A stretch of 64,000 nt of DNA, from the NCBI RefSeq assembly GCF_019649055.1, contig NW_026570272.1, positions 682,001 to 746,000 of the forward strand, in the 5' to 3' direction. The translations under genes and the position numbers were made by a program. This DNA is from Paramacrobiotus metropolitanus. Lineage: Eukaryota > Tardigrada > Eutardigrada > Parachela > Macrobiotidae. This document shows positions 1,141-9,382 of the stretch, piece by piece (positions within the stretch are counted from its first letter, which is position 1; each line of letters starts with the position of its first letter). Below the pieces are notes generated by a model, which worked only from the letters and a program-made list of their open reading frames with translations, ran no database searches and had not been told where the DNA came from.

Positions 1141-2617
1141 TAACGATGCAGAGGTGCACATGTGTAGCCGGCAAGAATGTTAACATGTTCACGGTTCACG
1201 GTGTGAGCATATTTGCCGGGCAAAAATGCTCACGAATGAAATCATGCATGTCAAGTGTAGATTTTCTCTGCATCCAGTCTGAAATTAAATGTTTTATGTT
1301 CTTGTATTCTCAGTACGCAAAGGATGGCATTAATATGTTGTTGGGAAATAAAACGTTGATCTCATAAAAACCAGTCTTTCCTAAACTTCGGCGACTTTTA
1401 TCATTAAGTTTTAAGCGATTCTGTATGGTTGGAGCAGGACTACACAGCTATGATGAAGATGGCATTGTATTGGGCAGAAGATTCCCTGTCTGGCAGTCCG
1501 TCTTTACAATACGCAATCGTGACACTGTTTATTTCTGAATAATATTTAATTGATTCTTTACTACGGGTATGTTGCTTTGCGAGCAGAACAAAATAGACGT
1601 TAATTTAGTGAATGATGCCGGGCAGTGATGAACACGTTAGCTATTCGGCGGTAGTCGGATACCGCTGATGCAAGCCACACTTGCAATCAGATCAGAGGAA
1701 TAACTCGGCCGTCTCTGCGTGGCAGTCTGCTGTATGGTCGTGAACATCGGCGCTGGGCGGGGATATCAACATTTTTTAGCCATGTAAATAAATCTAGAAA
1801 ATTTCATAACACTTAATAAAACATAAAACTTAGCAATAGTGGTAACAAGCCAGTTTTAATTTAGAACTTCGATGCTCTATACCGGTTCAATCATAATTCA
1901 GAATTATATTCATAATTCAGATGCTATCATGCCTTAAATAAGTAGCCCCTGCGTGATCTTTGGTGTTTAGTACGTACATAATATGAAACAACGAAATCAG
2001 TCTCTGAGGTGCACTGTAACCAGCTGACTTATCGGCTTACAGTTGCTTAATTTCATAATCAAATACTCCAGCAACCGGTCAGTTTCACAATTCATTTCAA
2101 ACAACTGGTCACTCTCCTCATTCTGTGTCTATTGCTCCCTATAATTCTGTTAAGAAACCTGATATAACCACAAAAGTGATTTAGCTTTAGGTGCGAAATC
2201 GGAATTTACTCCCCCTGCAAATATTTCAGCAAAGTCAAGCCGCGAATTTCTGCTGTGGGCTGCAACGAACGTGCATTTGGGAAGGGGCTTTAATTACCTT
2301 TAGAGAGAACCTGTGGCTGTAAAACTTTGGAGCAAGTGTGAAGCGTGCACTTCAAGTATAGGTACTTACGTATTTTACTTGAATACTTATTGCCCACACT
2401 CTACAGCATATTAAAATGCTTACAAACATTATGGCATTCTGTATAATTATATTTTTTAAAATTGTATTCCCAAGAACTGCCGGTGTGGTTTTTTGCAATT
2501 CGACGGATGCTAGTATGCGAACGAACGATAATACTGCACTGCGATCGTGAACATGGGAGCCGGGCAGGGATGTTCACGTTTGTGAGCACGCGTGCCGGCC
2601 GGGAATGCTCACGATTA

Positions 2618-2780
2618 GTGAGTCGGCGAAGTCCGCCTGGGCAGGCGACCGGGCGCCGTAAAACGCATTTAATCAAGGGAGCAGACAGAAATTCGTTTGG
2701 ACACACGCTCTGTCTAACTCTGTACTCTTGATTAAAAGCGGTGCCCGTTTTACGGTTTACGGCGGACTTCGCCGACTCAC
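2618..2780. mobile_element. 163-bp MITE with TA target duplication
   Basis: Terminal inverted repeats of about 20 bp, starting GTGAGTCGGCGAAGTCCGCC at 2618 and mirrored at 2761-2780, are flanked on both sides by TA (2616-2617 and 2781-2782). Inner parts (ATTAATCAAG-like and GCCGTAAAAC-like stretches) also mirror each other, so the unit can fold back. A TA duplication is typical of Tc1/mariner-type non-autonomous elements; no transposase is encoded. It begins five bases after one of the 31-bp palindromes. Confidence 0.65.
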
Positions 2781-3103
2781 TATTATAACGGTATGGTAAT
2801 CGGACACTGCTGACATGAGCTGCTCTCGTTATCAGATATTTGAAGATGCGTTAATTTATGTCATTAGCCTCTGCCACTGAATGCTTTATGTTTTGCGGCT
2901 TTTCTACCTGCGCTGAATTCGTAAACATGTGTGCCGGACGAGTATGTTTGCGTTTGTAAAAATGAATAGTTTACTTCGTTGACTATTAAGCTTTAAGAAA
3001 TTATGCAACATAATTGGCTGTAAATACTATGCCATGATGACTTTGGCCAGCATCGAAGAAAACTTTTTTCTAAAGATGGGATGTGCGTTAATACACAACT
3101 GCA

Positions 3104-3195
3104 GTTAAGGGAAGTGTGCCGGTACAAGGTACATGTTACATGTGATAAAACATTCGATTTTGCGCACTCCCAAGCACGTTTGTGCATTGTTTTAC
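3104..3195. repeat. Dispersed repeat (copy 1 of a GGTACCAAAT-type family)
   Basis: This stretch (AGTTAAGGGAAGT, then GGTAC-rich sequence, then TTTGCGCACTC and CACGTTTGT) is recognisably related to 45109-45199, with shorter relatives near 32616-32660 and 50037-50090. It has no coding content. The family is unnamed here; it may be an old DNA-transposon or SINE-like repeat. Confidence 0.4.
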
Positions 3196-5285
3196 GAACT
3201 CTGTAGCCAACTGATTTGTATACGTACATTGGCGTAAACACCGAGCCCCAGCATGCCTTAATTTAATTAAATTTGGTCGTGGGCTTCTGATTCGAGATTT
3301 TACGGTATGTTAGCGTGAAAATTCCCGGGGTTCACGGTGCCCATTGCATACTGGTGTCACGTCTAAAAAGAACCGAGATAATAAAGAATTAACCAAATAT
3401 AGTGCAACAAACTGAACAAAGTCTGCATAGCAACGATAATTCACTACGATGCTCCAATAACTTTTTAAGTTTTGTACTGCAGTATATTGGGTTTCGCAAT
3501 CTTATACATATCAGGCCAAGTCGGCACTGGTGCTAAAAATAATGTGGACATTCGCGCTCGGCACGCGTGCTCCCGAATATGAGGCTTATGAGCAAAATAC
3601 TGTAACAGTAGCCGATCTGGCTGCTGTTCTAGTGGGTTGGCGTGTTGACCTTACCACGATGTTTTGTGGGCTGTTGAGATGAAAGGTAGGCACGACCGGC
3701 AACGGCGCCGTCATGGACGCTCTTACTGACGTAACACAATTACTGAACGTAACAACGGAAGTTCACGGCATGTTTAATGGCAAGAACAGTGCAACACAGG
3801 GACAAGGTTCAGCAAGAGTTTAATAAGCAGAACAAGCTGATGCAAGCTATAACAAGCGAATGCAAGACTGAATTCTAAAAATTGTGAAGAAGGACAGCTA
3901 GCCGGTAAAAGGACAGAAATTCATAACCAATGATGAAAAATAACTGGGTGGTCTTATGGTTGTACAACTTCTATCGCTACAATACTAATGCAAAATACTG
4001 CCATCTACTTAACTGATTAACAGCAATTTTTAATTTAGAAATAGGGAAATTTGAAAATTTGTTTCCGGGACATCCTCAAACTCCACCCAATTTTCCAAAA
4101 TAATTTACGGTAAAGTTTGACCTTTATATAAGTCTAGTTTAATTTAGCTTTTGTGTGTGGTGAAGATTGCTCTTTTGAATGATATCAACATGTTGCCAAT
4201 CAGACATTAGATTAGACATTAGACTCATCACACCTTGATAAATTAGACGGCCATTTCGTTCAGCCACCCGGTATAAGCCGAAAAATCCCGTTTCGCTATT
4301 TATTCATCTTAATCCTTTGATAAATAAAAATCTGGAAATACATTTTGCAGCTCGAAAAGTTAACATAAATAAACATGTGCATCGCCGCCCGGCACACAAG
4401 TTTACAAACTTAATGCAAATTTGTACGTGCTATGTATTACACAGATAACGAAGTACGAGGATCGGCCCCAACAAAGAAAAAACGCTTGTTATCAGTTTTT
4501 GATGAGAGCGGTTTATATTACCGTTGTTTTACCGATTGCCGTGCAACTACAAGCGTGAACATCCTCGCCCGGCACGCGTGCTCACAAACGTGAACATCCC
4601 TGCCCGGCTCCCATGTTCACGAGTGTAACATGAACCGCCTGCCTGCCTTCATGCGGAGTAAGAGCGCGTCTGATCGGCATACGAGAGCGGCAAATGCTAG
4701 CGGTATCCGATTACTGCATAGATCTTACATCGTGAGCATCCCTGCTGGGCGTCCGTACTCACAAATACAGATACGATGTACAAGGAAAAAAAGTGGGCAA
4801 TGCTTAAACATATCTGAAAATCTGTGCGTTATTTATCGGTTATTCTAAGTGAAAACAAGCAACATCTGTTTTTATGTGTTGTACAATACAGTGTTGAAGA
4901 CTACAGAGATCAAACTGCAGTGGGTTCCATATATATACTTCCGCTTTGCGCTGTGCTGCATATTAGGTACGGATTCATATGAGAATGAAAGAAACTAGTA
5001 CTTCGTATAAACGTGGCCAGGTGTACAATGTAAATTCCCATGGTGCGTATATAAATCATGGCCGGTATACGGGTTACCTGCACCGTAATAAAACCATTCT
5101 ACAACCAAATGATGTACATGGGGGGCTCAAAACCCTCTGTGCGCGCGACATCCGCTTGCTCAGATACAGAAAATGGAAGTTACTGTATAAGTAAAATTAA
5201 GTTGGCGGTTGTGTGCCGAAAACAGAATTTTACTTTGTCTTCTTGCGATTTTACCGCTGGGGATAAATATGTACAGAGATGATTC

Positions 5286-5890
5286 TGACGAGGCGCATAC
5301 CCCAACTCTTGATTCTCTGATCAGCCTGTGCTTGGTATCGTTAGAATCCTTAGAAATTTAGCAATATTTTCCAAAAATCAACTTTTCCCCAGCTAAAGAA
5401 CGGGGATTTAGAGATCTCGGAGAAACCAGCACATACATGATGGCGGGCTTCAATCAGAACGTCAGCATGCGCCATACGCATTTGTGCGCAGTACCTGCGA
5501 CTAGTCTCGCTGCAGATCTGATGGTTCTGTATTGTGTTTTCTCGATAGCTGTCGCACCTTTTACCCTATCTCGCGGGCCATCGTCCAATGTTGCATTGAT
5601 GCCGATGCAGCCAGTCGATGTGAGTGCGCGCAATGGGGTAAAAAGGTGCGATAGCTATCGACAAACACTGCTTTGTATTCTCGATTAAAGACGGTTGCGT
5701 AAGCACGCATCCGTAAATGGACGCCGTAGATCCTATTGCGGTCTGAACAGCCTCTGAACGGTCTCTAAATCCCAGTTCTTCAGCTGGGGAAAAGTTGATT
5801 TTTGGTAACGATTCCTAAATTTCTATGGATTCTAACGATACCAAGTACAGGCTGATCAGAGAATCAAGAGTTGGGGAATCCGCCTCGTGA
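5286..5890. mobile_element. Foldback element with about 120-bp inverted arms
   Basis: The left arm (5286-5412) and right arm (5759-5890) are imperfect inverted copies: both carry CCCAACTCTTGATTCTCTGA, GGTATCGTTAGAATCC and a TTTTCCCCAGCT stretch in opposite orientation. A second inner inverted pair (about 5545-5571 and 5633-5661, core AGCTATCG with GCACCTTTTACCC) lies between them. The small open frame at 5437-5688 spans the inner hairpin and is probably not a gene. A fragment of the same arm occurs near 24295-24360. The target duplication could not be fixed. Confidence 0.6.
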
Positions 5891-6904
5891 ATAAAAACTT
5901 GTTTCGTGGTACTTCCTTAATGATATTTTTTAAATTCATTTTTGAATGGGAAAAAGTGTTATGGGCCTAGTTGTTTAACCCAGTGTAGGCATACAAATCA
6001 GTTGGGTACTGCCTGACTGATTACATTGCAAATCAGTGTTTATTCGTGCGCGAAAGCGATCGAATGTCAATAGATTACTAGATATTAATATACATGCACT
6101 TACGAGTAGTACCACTGCCGGGACACTTACCTTAATTGTCTTTTCGGCGAAATTGTAGTATCAGCACCGGATACTCATCTTTACAATCCTTTTTTTAAAT
6201 GTGGTGTCTCAGTCATTTCTCAGGAAAATCTACATGTACCCTGCATGATTTCATTCGTGAGCATTTTCGCCCGTCAAAAATGCTCACAAGCATTTTCGCC
6301 CGTCAAATATGCTCACACCGTGAACCGTGAACATGTTAACATTCTTGCCGGCTACACACATGTACAAGTGCTGTTTACAAGTGTCAACTGAAAACATTGT
6401 AGTATATTAATTACCATAACGTCAGCAAAACATGTTGAAAAGCCTCCTCTTTTGTGGATACATGATTCGCAGCCCTCATAAAAACCAAATTTTATGCCAA
6501 ATGATGCCTACCGTTGGTCACACAGAAGTTCGAAGTGCACTGGCTAACAGAAAATTATTTTCAATAATTTTTCGCTTTGTAACCTGTACGTACGCTGCGT
6601 AGCTTTCCGTTTCTGGCACCTAGTCACAAACACTTGCTACTTTCTTGAGAAAGCGGTAGTACATATTTACTTTGTTTCATAATTTATACATATAACAAGA
6701 AAGCAGAAATCTAAATTTAACACCATTTTGCGCTTCATGAAACTGAGCAGGTAAAAGAAGAAAACTTACAAAAACCATCGGGGTGAACCACGAGGAAGGA
6801 CGTCAGGGATCGTCAGTAATGTAATCTTTTGGCGATCCCTAGCAATTTGTTAGTAGTAACAGTTTCTCAAAGTTATACTTGGCTTTTATACTTGGCATGG
6901 CAAA

Positions 6905-9382
6905 GTTATACCTAGCTTTGTATGAACAAGGTACAGATTTACCCCCAAGCCCTCCGCCCACTAGTCGGAGACAACGCTGCAGCGAAGAGGATCTTGTTCG
7001 GCAAGTTGGTCAGAAGATCGATGATGGATCCATCTCCGGCGCTATGCGAGTGTTGTTGTCCACAGATTCAGTGGCCGTCTGCACACCCGAAGTTCTCCAA
7101 AATTTGCGCGAGAAACACCCTTTAAGCCCCCCACCGTCTCGGCTCGCCACGCCACTTCTGCTGTCGCTGCGCCTATAATAACTTCTGCAGAAGTGTTCGC
7201 TGCCATCCACACTTTCCCACGAGGCTCAGCTGCAGGTCCAGACGGTTTAAGGCCTCAACATTTGCTGGACTTTATGGGCTCAAAGCTAGATGACCAAAGC
7301 GGACCCTTTTGCGAACCCGTTGCCTCTGTGTTGACGCTGGTTCAGCAAGGTAAAATTCCCGCTGTTATACGGCCGATCTTCTTTGGTGGTAAATTACTGG
7401 CGCTGCGGAAGAAGGACGGTGGGCTGCACCCGATAGCAAGTAGGGCTGTCACTACGTCGTCTAATCGCCAAAATCGTGTGCACTAGGATGGCGGACCGGG
7501 CAACCGCTTTGCTCACTCCTCACCAGTCTGGTTTTAACGTCCGGGGCGGGCTGAAGCCATCGTTCACGCCACCAGGCATTTCATCCAGTCCTCACCGGAG
7601 AGCATTAAAGCACTCGTGAAGATCGATTTTCGCAATGCTTTCAATACTGTATCCCGAGAAGTGATTTTAGATGCGGTGCATCAACATTTCCCCGAATACG
7701 ACGAATACTATTGGTCAGCGTATGGGCATCATTCTTCTTTGTTCATCGATCAGACGGTGCTTTCGTCCGAGTCTGGAGTACAACAAGGCGACCCATTGGG
7801 CCCACTGCTGTTTTGCCTGGCATTGCTTCGTGTTATCGCTACCCTGGATACTGTGCTCAACGCTTGGTACCTTGATGACGGAACCCTGCGGAGCGCCGGC
7901 GACACTAGCAGAAAATTTTGGACGGGTTATCACAGGCGCACGCTCCACTGGATTGGAGATTAATGAGGCTAAATGTGAACACTTTGTATGGGGAGGCTCA
8001 GAGAGTGAACGGCAGGAAGTCATCGATGATTTCGTTTCACATCATCCCCAGCCCCGTGTTGTGTCCAGTACGACTTTAACCTTGCTCGGTGCCCCGGTTC
8101 TAGACGATGCGATTGAAGACTCATTGCAAGCGAAATCAAGTGCAATAGGGAGAGCTTGTGAGCGCCTGCAACTTCTTCCTCGCCATCATGCACTATATTT
8201 GCTCAGACACTGCTTGGGTGCCCTGAAAATAATATATGTGCTTAGATGTTGCAATGCTTGGAAGCATCCACATCTGCTGTATCAAATTGATGAGTCATTG
8301 CCCTCCTGTTTCCAAGAACTCAGTAACGTGCGGGTGAACCACGACGACTACCCGTGTTGGAGGCAAGCGACCCTTCCAGTCAGTCGAGGAGGTATCGGCA
8401 TACGACGAGCGGAGGAATTATCACTTCCAGCCGTTTTGGCTTCGATTCACTCCGTATCGTGTTTGTTATCGTCGATGCTTCCTCACCTACCGGCAGTGGA
8501 CGCTTCCGAAGCAATTGAATGTGGAAAGGTAAAGCCCGACAACCGGAAATGCCCGAAGTTGCCTTCCGAAAGCTTCAGAAAACCTGGGACTTACCGCTGT
8601 GTAATGTGTCAGTTTCAGTTTTACTGGACTTGTTTCGCGGCGACAGCGTCAACACAGCCCGTCTCCTTGCACAGTCCAGACCGGAAGCCGGTATTTGGCT
8701 GAATGCGCTTCCTTCGGCCCACATCGGCAACCTGCTCGACGACGAAACGATGAAAATTTCGATTGGCCTGCGTCTGGGAGCGGATATCTGCGAGCCACAT
8801 AACTGCACCAAATGTGACAAACATGTTGACAAGTTGGGCCGCCACGGTTTATCATGCACCTACTCGGCCGGTAGGCATGCGCGCCATGGAGGGCATAACA
8901 GTATTTTGTGCCGCGCTTGTGTTTCAGCTGGTGTCCCTGCTAAGCTCGAACCACGCGGCATGTCCTCCACAACAGATCAACGACCTGACGGCTGTACAAC
9001 TTTCGCCTGGAAAAGAGGAGTGTGTCTGGCCTGGGATGTGACGTGCGTCGACACAATGGCCCTTTCCCATCTTCCGTCTACGTCGATTACGGCAGGTGCT
9101 GCTGCTGTACAAGCAGAAGAAAAGAAGTCCCGACTGTACGCCTATCTGCAAGGGCGCTACATTTTTTCTCCGATCGCCTTCGAGACGATGGGTTCCTGGG
9201 GCCCGTCGGCTATCGCCATTGTGAAGGAGTTGGGCAAAAGACTTCAGGAGCACACAGGAGAGCGTCGATCACATGAGGATCTGCGTCAACGACTATCGTT
9301 GGAGATTCAGCGCGGAAATGCAGCATCTATCCTTGGCACGATGGACGGAGTGGATAGTTTAAACGAAGTTTTGCTGTTGTGA
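6905..9382 (+). mobile_element. Decayed non-LTR retrotransposon (LINE) with RT, CCHC finger and restriction-like nuclease domain
   Basis: In order: an N-terminal stretch (about 6940-7130), the RT region starting with GPDGLRPQHL (near 7235) and LRKKDGGLHPIA (near 7400), KIDFRNAFN (7617), the GVQQGDPLGPLLF block (about 7770-7810), the catalytic YLDD (7868-7879), then a C-terminal CX2C...H...C finger (8804-8854) and an RPDG...WDVTCVDT pair (8980 and 9032) that looks like the PD-(D/E)XK nuclease of R2-type elements. The order RT then finger then nuclease is that of site-specific LINE clades (R2/NeSL/HERO-like); I cannot name the clade. The reading frame changes about five times (near 7170, 7440, 7555, 7915 and 8515), so it is dead as read. 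The 3' end reads through to a TGA at 9380. The element may extend upstream of 6905; no poly-A tail or target duplication was found. Confidence 0.85.

Follow-up and report, generated by a model that had tools for sequence, protein, structure and literature searches.

Putative end-mimicking transposase-binding sites in a Ginger1-like, non-autonomous transposon of Paramacrobiotus metropolitanus

The stretch of DNA analysed here (the window) comprises 64,000 nucleotides of the tardigrade Paramacrobiotus metropolitanus (assembly GCF_019649055.1, contig NW_026570272.1, positions 682,001 to 746,000 of the forward strand). It contains a copy of a non-autonomous DNA transposon that holds twelve interrupted palindromes of 31 base pairs (bp), which had been noticed from the letters alone in an earlier note (Table 1). 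The number of these units was borne out: A search for GTGARCAT-15-ATGYTCAC with up to three mismatches found 13 places in the window as compared to 1.05 expected, and none of 100 shuffled windows reached 13. Eleven of the places are units, and the remaining ones are the element's own terminus with its flank (1154-1184) and a place without the core that lies beyond the element (11965). The twelfth unit (4375-4405) has four arm mismatches and was beyond the reach of this search; it was recovered by repeat comparison and by scoring arms and core together, which gave exactly twelve units inside the element, spanning 1203-6316. All twelve are ungapped and 31 bp long, and the one longer unit described in the earlier note was not found. 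In contrast, the 35-bp period at 2547/2582 and 4555/4590 and the inversion of whole blocks were both confirmed: A repeat finder reported 2545-2616 and 4551-4622 as 93% complementary, and the outermost inverted pair, 1154-1230 and 6289-6365, as 94% complementary and 5,058 nucleotides apart. It was this outermost pair that made us suspect a transposon, and the mirror point of the unit blocks is indeed that of a transposon with inverted ends, the centre of the element lying at about 3760.

Table 1. Features of the transposon copy in the window
Feature	Position	Strand	Basis
Non-autonomous transposon copy, family A, 5194 bp, ends TGTAGCC...GGCTACA	1163..6356		inverted ends, duplication, comparison with 11 further two-ended A copies
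Left target site duplication, CACATG	1157..1162		copy comparison
Right target site duplication, CACATG, perfect 6-bp match to left	6357..6362		copy comparison
Left terminus: TGTA tip, GCCGGC core, AAGA spacer, three tandem 8-bp half-sites ATGTTAAC ATGTTCAC GGTTCACG	1163..1200	+	copy comparison
Right terminus, same order as left	6319..6356	-	copy comparison
31-bp unit, end class, 41 bp from end	1203..1233		pattern search, arms and core scoring
31-bp unit, internal	1740..1770		pattern search, arms and core scoring
31-bp unit, internal, first of 35-bp-period pair	2547..2577		pattern search, repeat finder, scoring
31-bp unit, internal, second of 35-bp-period pair	2582..2612		pattern search, repeat finder, scoring
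31-bp unit, internal	2921..2951		pattern search, arms and core scoring
31-bp unit, internal	3544..3574		pattern search, arms and core scoring
31-bp unit, internal, 4 arm mismatches	4375..4405		repeat finder, arms and core scoring
31-bp unit, internal, inverted pair, first	4555..4585		pattern search, repeat finder, scoring
31-bp unit, internal, inverted pair, second	4590..4620		pattern search, repeat finder, scoring
31-bp unit, internal	4732..4762		pattern search, arms and core scoring
31-bp unit, end class, 70 bp from right end	6257..6287		pattern search, arms and core scoring
31-bp unit, end class, 41 bp from right end, 2-bp overlap with 6257..6287	6286..6316		pattern search, scoring
Small inverted-repeat insert nested in element, edges approximate, absent from copy L044	2618..2775		
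599-bp insert, 127-bp inverted arms, flanked by TGA at either end, missing in copies L042 and L044	5289..5887		

The earlier note had considered repeats inside an unknown mobile element as one possibility, and the inverted ends and the target duplication bear this out. In the genome from which the window comes (169.8 Mb in 533 contigs), the left end as a query gave 46 matches, and the 24-base terminal core with up to three mismatches was found at 78 places and nowhere in a reversed control. Comparison of the copies fixed the end of the element as TGTAGCCGGC..., and four related families could be distinguished, i. e. A, to which the window copy belongs, B, C, and D. Sixteen two-ended copies (12 of family A and 4 of family B) were compared for 6-bp target duplications: These are perfect in 11 copies (among them 9 of the 12 family-A copies), match at five of six positions in four, and at one of six in L045. 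Duplications of 3-5 or 7-10 bp gave at most one perfect match for each length among the same copies. A 17th two-ended copy, C23 of family A, was counted apart and has flanks without a matching duplication, which makes 11 perfect duplications among 17 two-ended A and B copies. The consensus of the target sites reads TG[YACGYR]CAC.

The units are not restricted to the window copy. Arms alone with two mismatches are weak evidence on the scale of the genome (278 forward places versus 165 in the reversed control), whereas arms and core together with one mismatch provide strong evidence: 110 matches on one strand and 123 on the other, as compared to 2 and 0 in the control. Each of the 63 exact matches to the unit lies within 10 kilobases (kb) of a family end, and 31 of them are found within 100 bp. 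The 12 two-ended family-A copies, counted apart from C23 and from loci with a single end, hold 97 units. Of their 24 ends, 23 have a unit at a distance of 41 bp and 12 have one at 70 bp, followed by internal units and pairs. When the arms were permuted (200 permutations in six of the twelve elements), the mean was 0.22 and a single permutation reached 19, versus 49 observed. The units are mostly oriented relative to the ends, as judged by their centre base: Among the 53 units in the left half, 39 have a G at this position, and among the 44 in the right half, 37 have a C.

The earlier note had stated that a unit that is just part of one long ordinary repeat, with no excess of arm complementarity, would argue against it. 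The unit does belong to a repeat family, but within this family the arms and the core are kept alike between copies, and the spacers and flanks are not. Between diverged copies, identity is 0.931 for the left arm (243 site alignments from 56 element pairs), 0.921 for the right arm (211 from 56), and 0.942 for the core (201 from 55), as compared to 0.824 for the spacers (201 from 55) and 0.797-0.801 for neighbouring DNA in the same copy comparisons; these site alignments are not independent, as copies are shared and each pair is counted in both directions. The measure is based on alignments of less than 85% identity and at least 300 bases among 17 sequences, leaving aside L052 and the C23 stretch, and the part that was measured was not used to define the unit. 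The end units of the 12 two-ended copies were dropped, and those of five one-ended loci were kept.

The termini and the units follow one plan. In the termini of families A, B, C, and D that were read, a TGTA tip is followed by GCCGGC, four or five A/T-rich bases, and an 8-bp half-site that is mostly repeated in tandem. The unit consists of the same modules head to head, i. e. half-site, spacer, GCC-S-GGC, spacer, and half-site, without the tip. Other families share this tip, and TGTAGCCGGCARAA was found at 148 places versus 2 in the control. The half-site is ATGYTCAC in family A, ATGTTAAC in family B, and GGTGGATG in family C, and in each of these three families the arm of the unit is present at 8 of 8 positions in the terminus of the same family (in A in the form ATGTTCAC, in B as ATGTTAAC, and in C as GGTGGATG). 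The half-site next to the core of the terminus is one base off the unit arm in all three, and the spacing between core and half-site, four bases in A and B and five in C, is equal in termini and units. Termini and units switch the half-site together without being copies of each other along their length, which is most readily accounted for by a single protein recognising both.

The window copy itself shows no transposase gene. Its longest stop-to-stop frame has 149 amino acids and, among frames of at least 140 amino acids, recurs only in the 97% identical copy L049; the four longest frames had no Pfam match, and a search of the whole window against Rfam gave no match. The telomere pattern TTAGGC/TTAGGG was looked for as well, with 0 matches. 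The statement of the earlier note that no gene explains the array thus holds for this copy but not for its longer relatives with the same kind of ends, which carry an integrase-type gene. In the 10.6-kb family-B copy C116 (L055 and L056), matches to rve (2.2e-11) and Integrase_H2C2 (3.3e-7) in L055 lie between the ends and are above the Pfam cut-offs. The exon with the third catalytic residue matches rve_3 just under the cut-off (3.3e-5), and a Ulp1-like frame matches Peptidase_C48 at 0.0023 (18.2 bits versus a cut-off of 20.7). Residues H, D, Q, and C of the catalytic type are common to the C48-like sequences of L056 and L048; a fold model of the C48-like protein had a mean pLDDT (predicted local distance difference test score) of 38 and was not used. 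The integrase and C48 matches of C11 are 98% identical to those of C116. Similarly, the 13.6-kb family-C copy C58 (L060) has matches to rve (8.2e-14) and Integrase_H2C2 (2.8e-11) above the Pfam cut-offs, a C48 match downstream, and a perfect GGCGCC duplication on both sides. A search of the PDB sequences with the family-C integrase exon gave one match, Ty3 Gag-Pol (E 0.0017). For the YPYY motif upstream of the zinc finger, inspection by eye and without a reference alignment found HYPG...RYR...YY in L060:755-1279, and the Cys-rich frame L056:3134-3415, in which a PHD finger was looked for, had no Pfam match.

A Polinton (Maverick) was considered as the autonomous partner and rejected. The stretch between the two family-A ends of C23 is 21.8 kb long and carries PolB, an rve integrase, other genes, and weak matches to a protease and an ATPase. 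However, this Polinton is nested in the family-A copy and has 40-bp inverted AG..CT ends of its own, with GAAGTA on both sides, and the idea of a partner was therefore dropped: PolB and the integrase belong to the insert rather than to the family-A ends.

Small copies provide a further view on the relation between units and ends. Nine small two-ended copies have four perfect duplications (L063, L064, L068, and L069), two that match at five of six positions, and three that are unmatched. The seven end pairs that are only 116-205 bp apart each contain, as judged by eye, one or two units, and have three perfect duplications (L063, L064, and L068), two at five of six, and two unmatched. Three of the small copies, L063, L066, and L067 of family C, have one end that resembles, again by eye, an internal module fused to a CTACA tip, and in L063 the duplication is perfect (AGCGCT). 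This suggests that an internal module may serve as an end once the tip is present; a deletion between an internal and a terminal repeat would give the same joint. The flanks of the 116-bp copy L066 are exact inverted complements over 12 bp and not a direct duplication. Two further arrangements of terminal sequence were noticed: L061:2004-2314 is a subterminal repeat array of family C with seven starts at a spacing of 42-43 bp that contains the half-site and GCCGG core, and in L072:28-101 two copies of a terminus start 25 bp apart, as though the end had been duplicated in tandem.

Taken together, we consider it probable that the units are putative binding sites for a transposase that mimic the ends of a Ginger1-like, integrase-type, non-autonomous transposon with 6-bp target duplications. 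A bound site had been among the functions proposed in the earlier note, and it is the best-supported one as predicted from sequence, given the conservation of arms and core and the match of the half-sites to the termini. The identity of the binder, its dimeric state, and its effect on mobility are what we infer from this arrangement. The transposase of the family, or a protein encoded with it, would bind the half-sites as a dimer and would recognise the two mirrored half-sites within a unit in the same way as those at the ends. Binding would then occur at the ends and at about eight units per copy, and the units may concentrate transposase in the vicinity of the ends, so that the pairing of one end with the other is assisted or modulated. 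Because they are without the TGTA/TACA tip, the units would be bound but not cut, and they might act on the transposase in either direction, by increasing its local concentration or by restraining it. It is tempting to speculate further, and this more far-reaching version we put forward only tentatively, that the transposase treats the units as tipless ends which titrate or restrain it in long copies, that a unit which has acquired a CTACA tip becomes a working end and gives rise to small copies, and that the families represent a series of changes in transposase specificity in which the termini and about eight units per copy switched the half-site together.

Several observations weigh against the idea of end-mimicking binding sites. 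No integrase was found between paired family-A ends among the 150 matches listed (150 of 964 candidates scored), and in the A-type loci L048 and L054 only C48-like sequence is present; family A may thus be moved by a protein that is now lost, unassembled, or beyond the matches listed. The second arm form of family A, ATGCTCAC, is absent from the A terminus, and the B arm is found at 8 of 8 positions in the A terminus too, so that A and B can be separated only by half-sites 2 and 3. Family D agrees with the plan no further than the core and the start of the half-site: Its arm, as delimited, is present at 5 of 8 positions in the D terminus versus 6 of 8 in the A terminus. When the labels of all four families were permuted, the matched sum was reached in 2 of the 24 arrangements, one of which is the true assignment. 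Some of the units aligned in the conservation measure, in which pairs are counted both ways, may be non-orthologous. Finally, the complementarity of the arms in family A is only slightly above the prediction from constant arms. The compensatory changes for which the earlier note had proposed to look amount to a slight excess within the family at pairs 5-27 (0.66 versus 0.50 predicted) and 1-31 (0.90 versus 0.82).

Formally, a unit equals two tipless ends joined at the core, and the units could therefore be relics, i. e. head-to-head joints of ends that resulted from self-insertion or abortive transposition and have been copied along without a present function. The family-D unit, GCCGGC flanked by mirrored sequence like the D terminus, would agree with such an origin, as would the seeming exchange between internal units and termini in small family-C copies. 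We regard this explanation as unlikely in view of the identity of arms and core (0.92-0.94 versus 0.80-0.82 for spacers and flanks) and of the unit placed 41 bp from nearly all ends (23 of 24). The long family-B copy, in which units lie outside the recognised exons and flank them on both sides, raises the question whether the units bind a host factor such as an insulator, promoter, or silencing protein that shapes transcription of the element. This is quite unlikely: The half-site varies among A, B, and C in one genome, and it does so likewise in the termini, a pattern that would not be expected if an invariant host protein were the binder.

The other function proposed in the earlier note, a structured RNA or DNA hairpin that might act in processing, as a source of small RNAs, or in replication, is not favoured by our analysis, and we judge it to be very unlikely. 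The arms are complementary, and in the 21 distinct end-class units complementarity is found in 0.95-1.00 of cases at two of the four spacer pairs. Moreover, among six window units that were folded, the end-class units 1203 and 6257 fold far better than shuffled sequences (z -4.9 and -5.4), and the internal unit 4590 does so moderately (z -2.9). However, the internal units 2547, 2582, and 4555, half of those folded, do not stand out (z -1.9, -0.9, and +0.8), and in the internal units (58 distinct) the four spacer pairs form Watson-Crick pairs in 0.05-0.28, which is less than the 0.34-0.41 expected from composition. The presence of half-sites of the same kind in tandem at the termini speaks against a hairpin as well. 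The size of the units and their asymmetric centre would fit sites of a tyrosine recombinase, which have two arms and measure about 31-34 bp, and a DIRS-like element with a reverse transcriptase and a weak recombinase match (0.021, below the cut-off) is nested in copy L041. This element is a separate insert in one copy, however, and the integrase encoded by the long copies of families B and C belongs to the rve kind, which makes a role in tyrosine recombination most improbable.

The target of piggyBac and piggyBat elements is the 4-bp TTAA, in contrast to 6 bp here. In piggyBac and piggyBat, repeated sites also consist of a tip motif and a palindrome, which is bound by two domains of a transposase dimer, and a subterminal site of piggyBat can inhibit; however, the sequence is unrelated, and piggyBat has three sites within about 120 bp of its left end (PMC11707139). 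Ginger1 elements are organised as H2C2, DDE core, and then Ulp1 or OTU, with introns (PMC2836005). Our families resemble them in inverted ends of the TGTNR type (here TGTAG), in the H2C2 zinc finger and rve core of the B and C copies, whose coding lies in several frames as with introns, and possibly in a Ulp1-type protease downstream, for which there is a C48-like match below the cut-off here (PMC2836005). They differ in the target duplication (4-bp CCGG or CCGT in Ginger1 versus 6 bp around CG in TG[YACGYR]CAC), in size (2.6-7 kb versus the 13.6-kb C58 copy), and in the presence of end-like palindromes, for which a search of the Ginger1 paper for the word 'palindrom' gave 0 matches (PMC2836005). 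GingerRoot and IS3EU share the 6-bp duplication and an integrase-related transposase, and for GingerRoot TG..CA ends are said to occur occasionally; in contrast to our families, TA..TA ends are found mostly (GingerRoot) or always (complete IS3EU), a comparison that is based on published descriptions of the elements (PMC10045372). Subterminal inverted or quasi-palindromic repeats are also present in the P element and Hermes (PMC7776569, PMC10368747), and in Hermes they are bound by the BED domains of the transposase (PMC10368747). However, the P element generates 8-bp target duplications (PMC7776569), and both have transposases of other superfamilies, with no end-mimicking dimer units described in the accessible parts of these papers (PMC7776569, PMC10368747). 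In the accessible parts of the literature searched on Ginger elements and internal palindromes, we met no report of a 6-bp duplication combined with a Ginger1-like integrase and many end-mimicking units with a half-site that changes between families; the component parts are of known kinds.

If the units are indeed read by the transposase, a hitherto unexplained repeat array would become a readable recognition code for a little-studied group of transposons related to retroviral integrases. Several families coexist in this genome, and integrase genes are available for two of them; they would offer matched pairs of transposase and site for studying how specificity changes, and they may provide a handle on whether dispersed mimics of the ends help or restrain transposition.

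The family-A copies have themselves been targets of other elements. The inserts near 2618-2775 and at 5289-5887 of the window are later than the element, as other copies are without them, and the latter is a small transposon of another family. The Polinton nested in the family-A element on C23 extends from L037:1313 to L038:7737 and encodes PolB, in a frame that is broken by a stop, and an rve integrase, with the matches to a protease and an A32-ATPase being below the cut-off; its cargo includes a gene for a TATA-binding-protein-like protein (TBP 1.7e-18), an ADP-ribosylglycohydrolase-BIR fusion, and a BIR-RING protein. Its integrase has at least 119 matches in the genome at E <= 1e-10, many of them in open frames (114 of 1146 candidates scored), so that the genome is rich in Polintons. 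The DIRS-like element nested in L041 lies at about 3180-6662 and has a reverse transcriptase match of 1.9e-14, and a DDE_1 transposase (5.8e-21) nested in a family-A copy at L044:5677-6552 probably represents an insert of the pogo or Tc1 type. Immediately to the right of the element, 6879-9382 of the window contains broken reverse-transcriptase-like frames; the frame at 8519-9382 had no Pfam match, and 7616-7963 matches RVT_1 at 1.9e-8.

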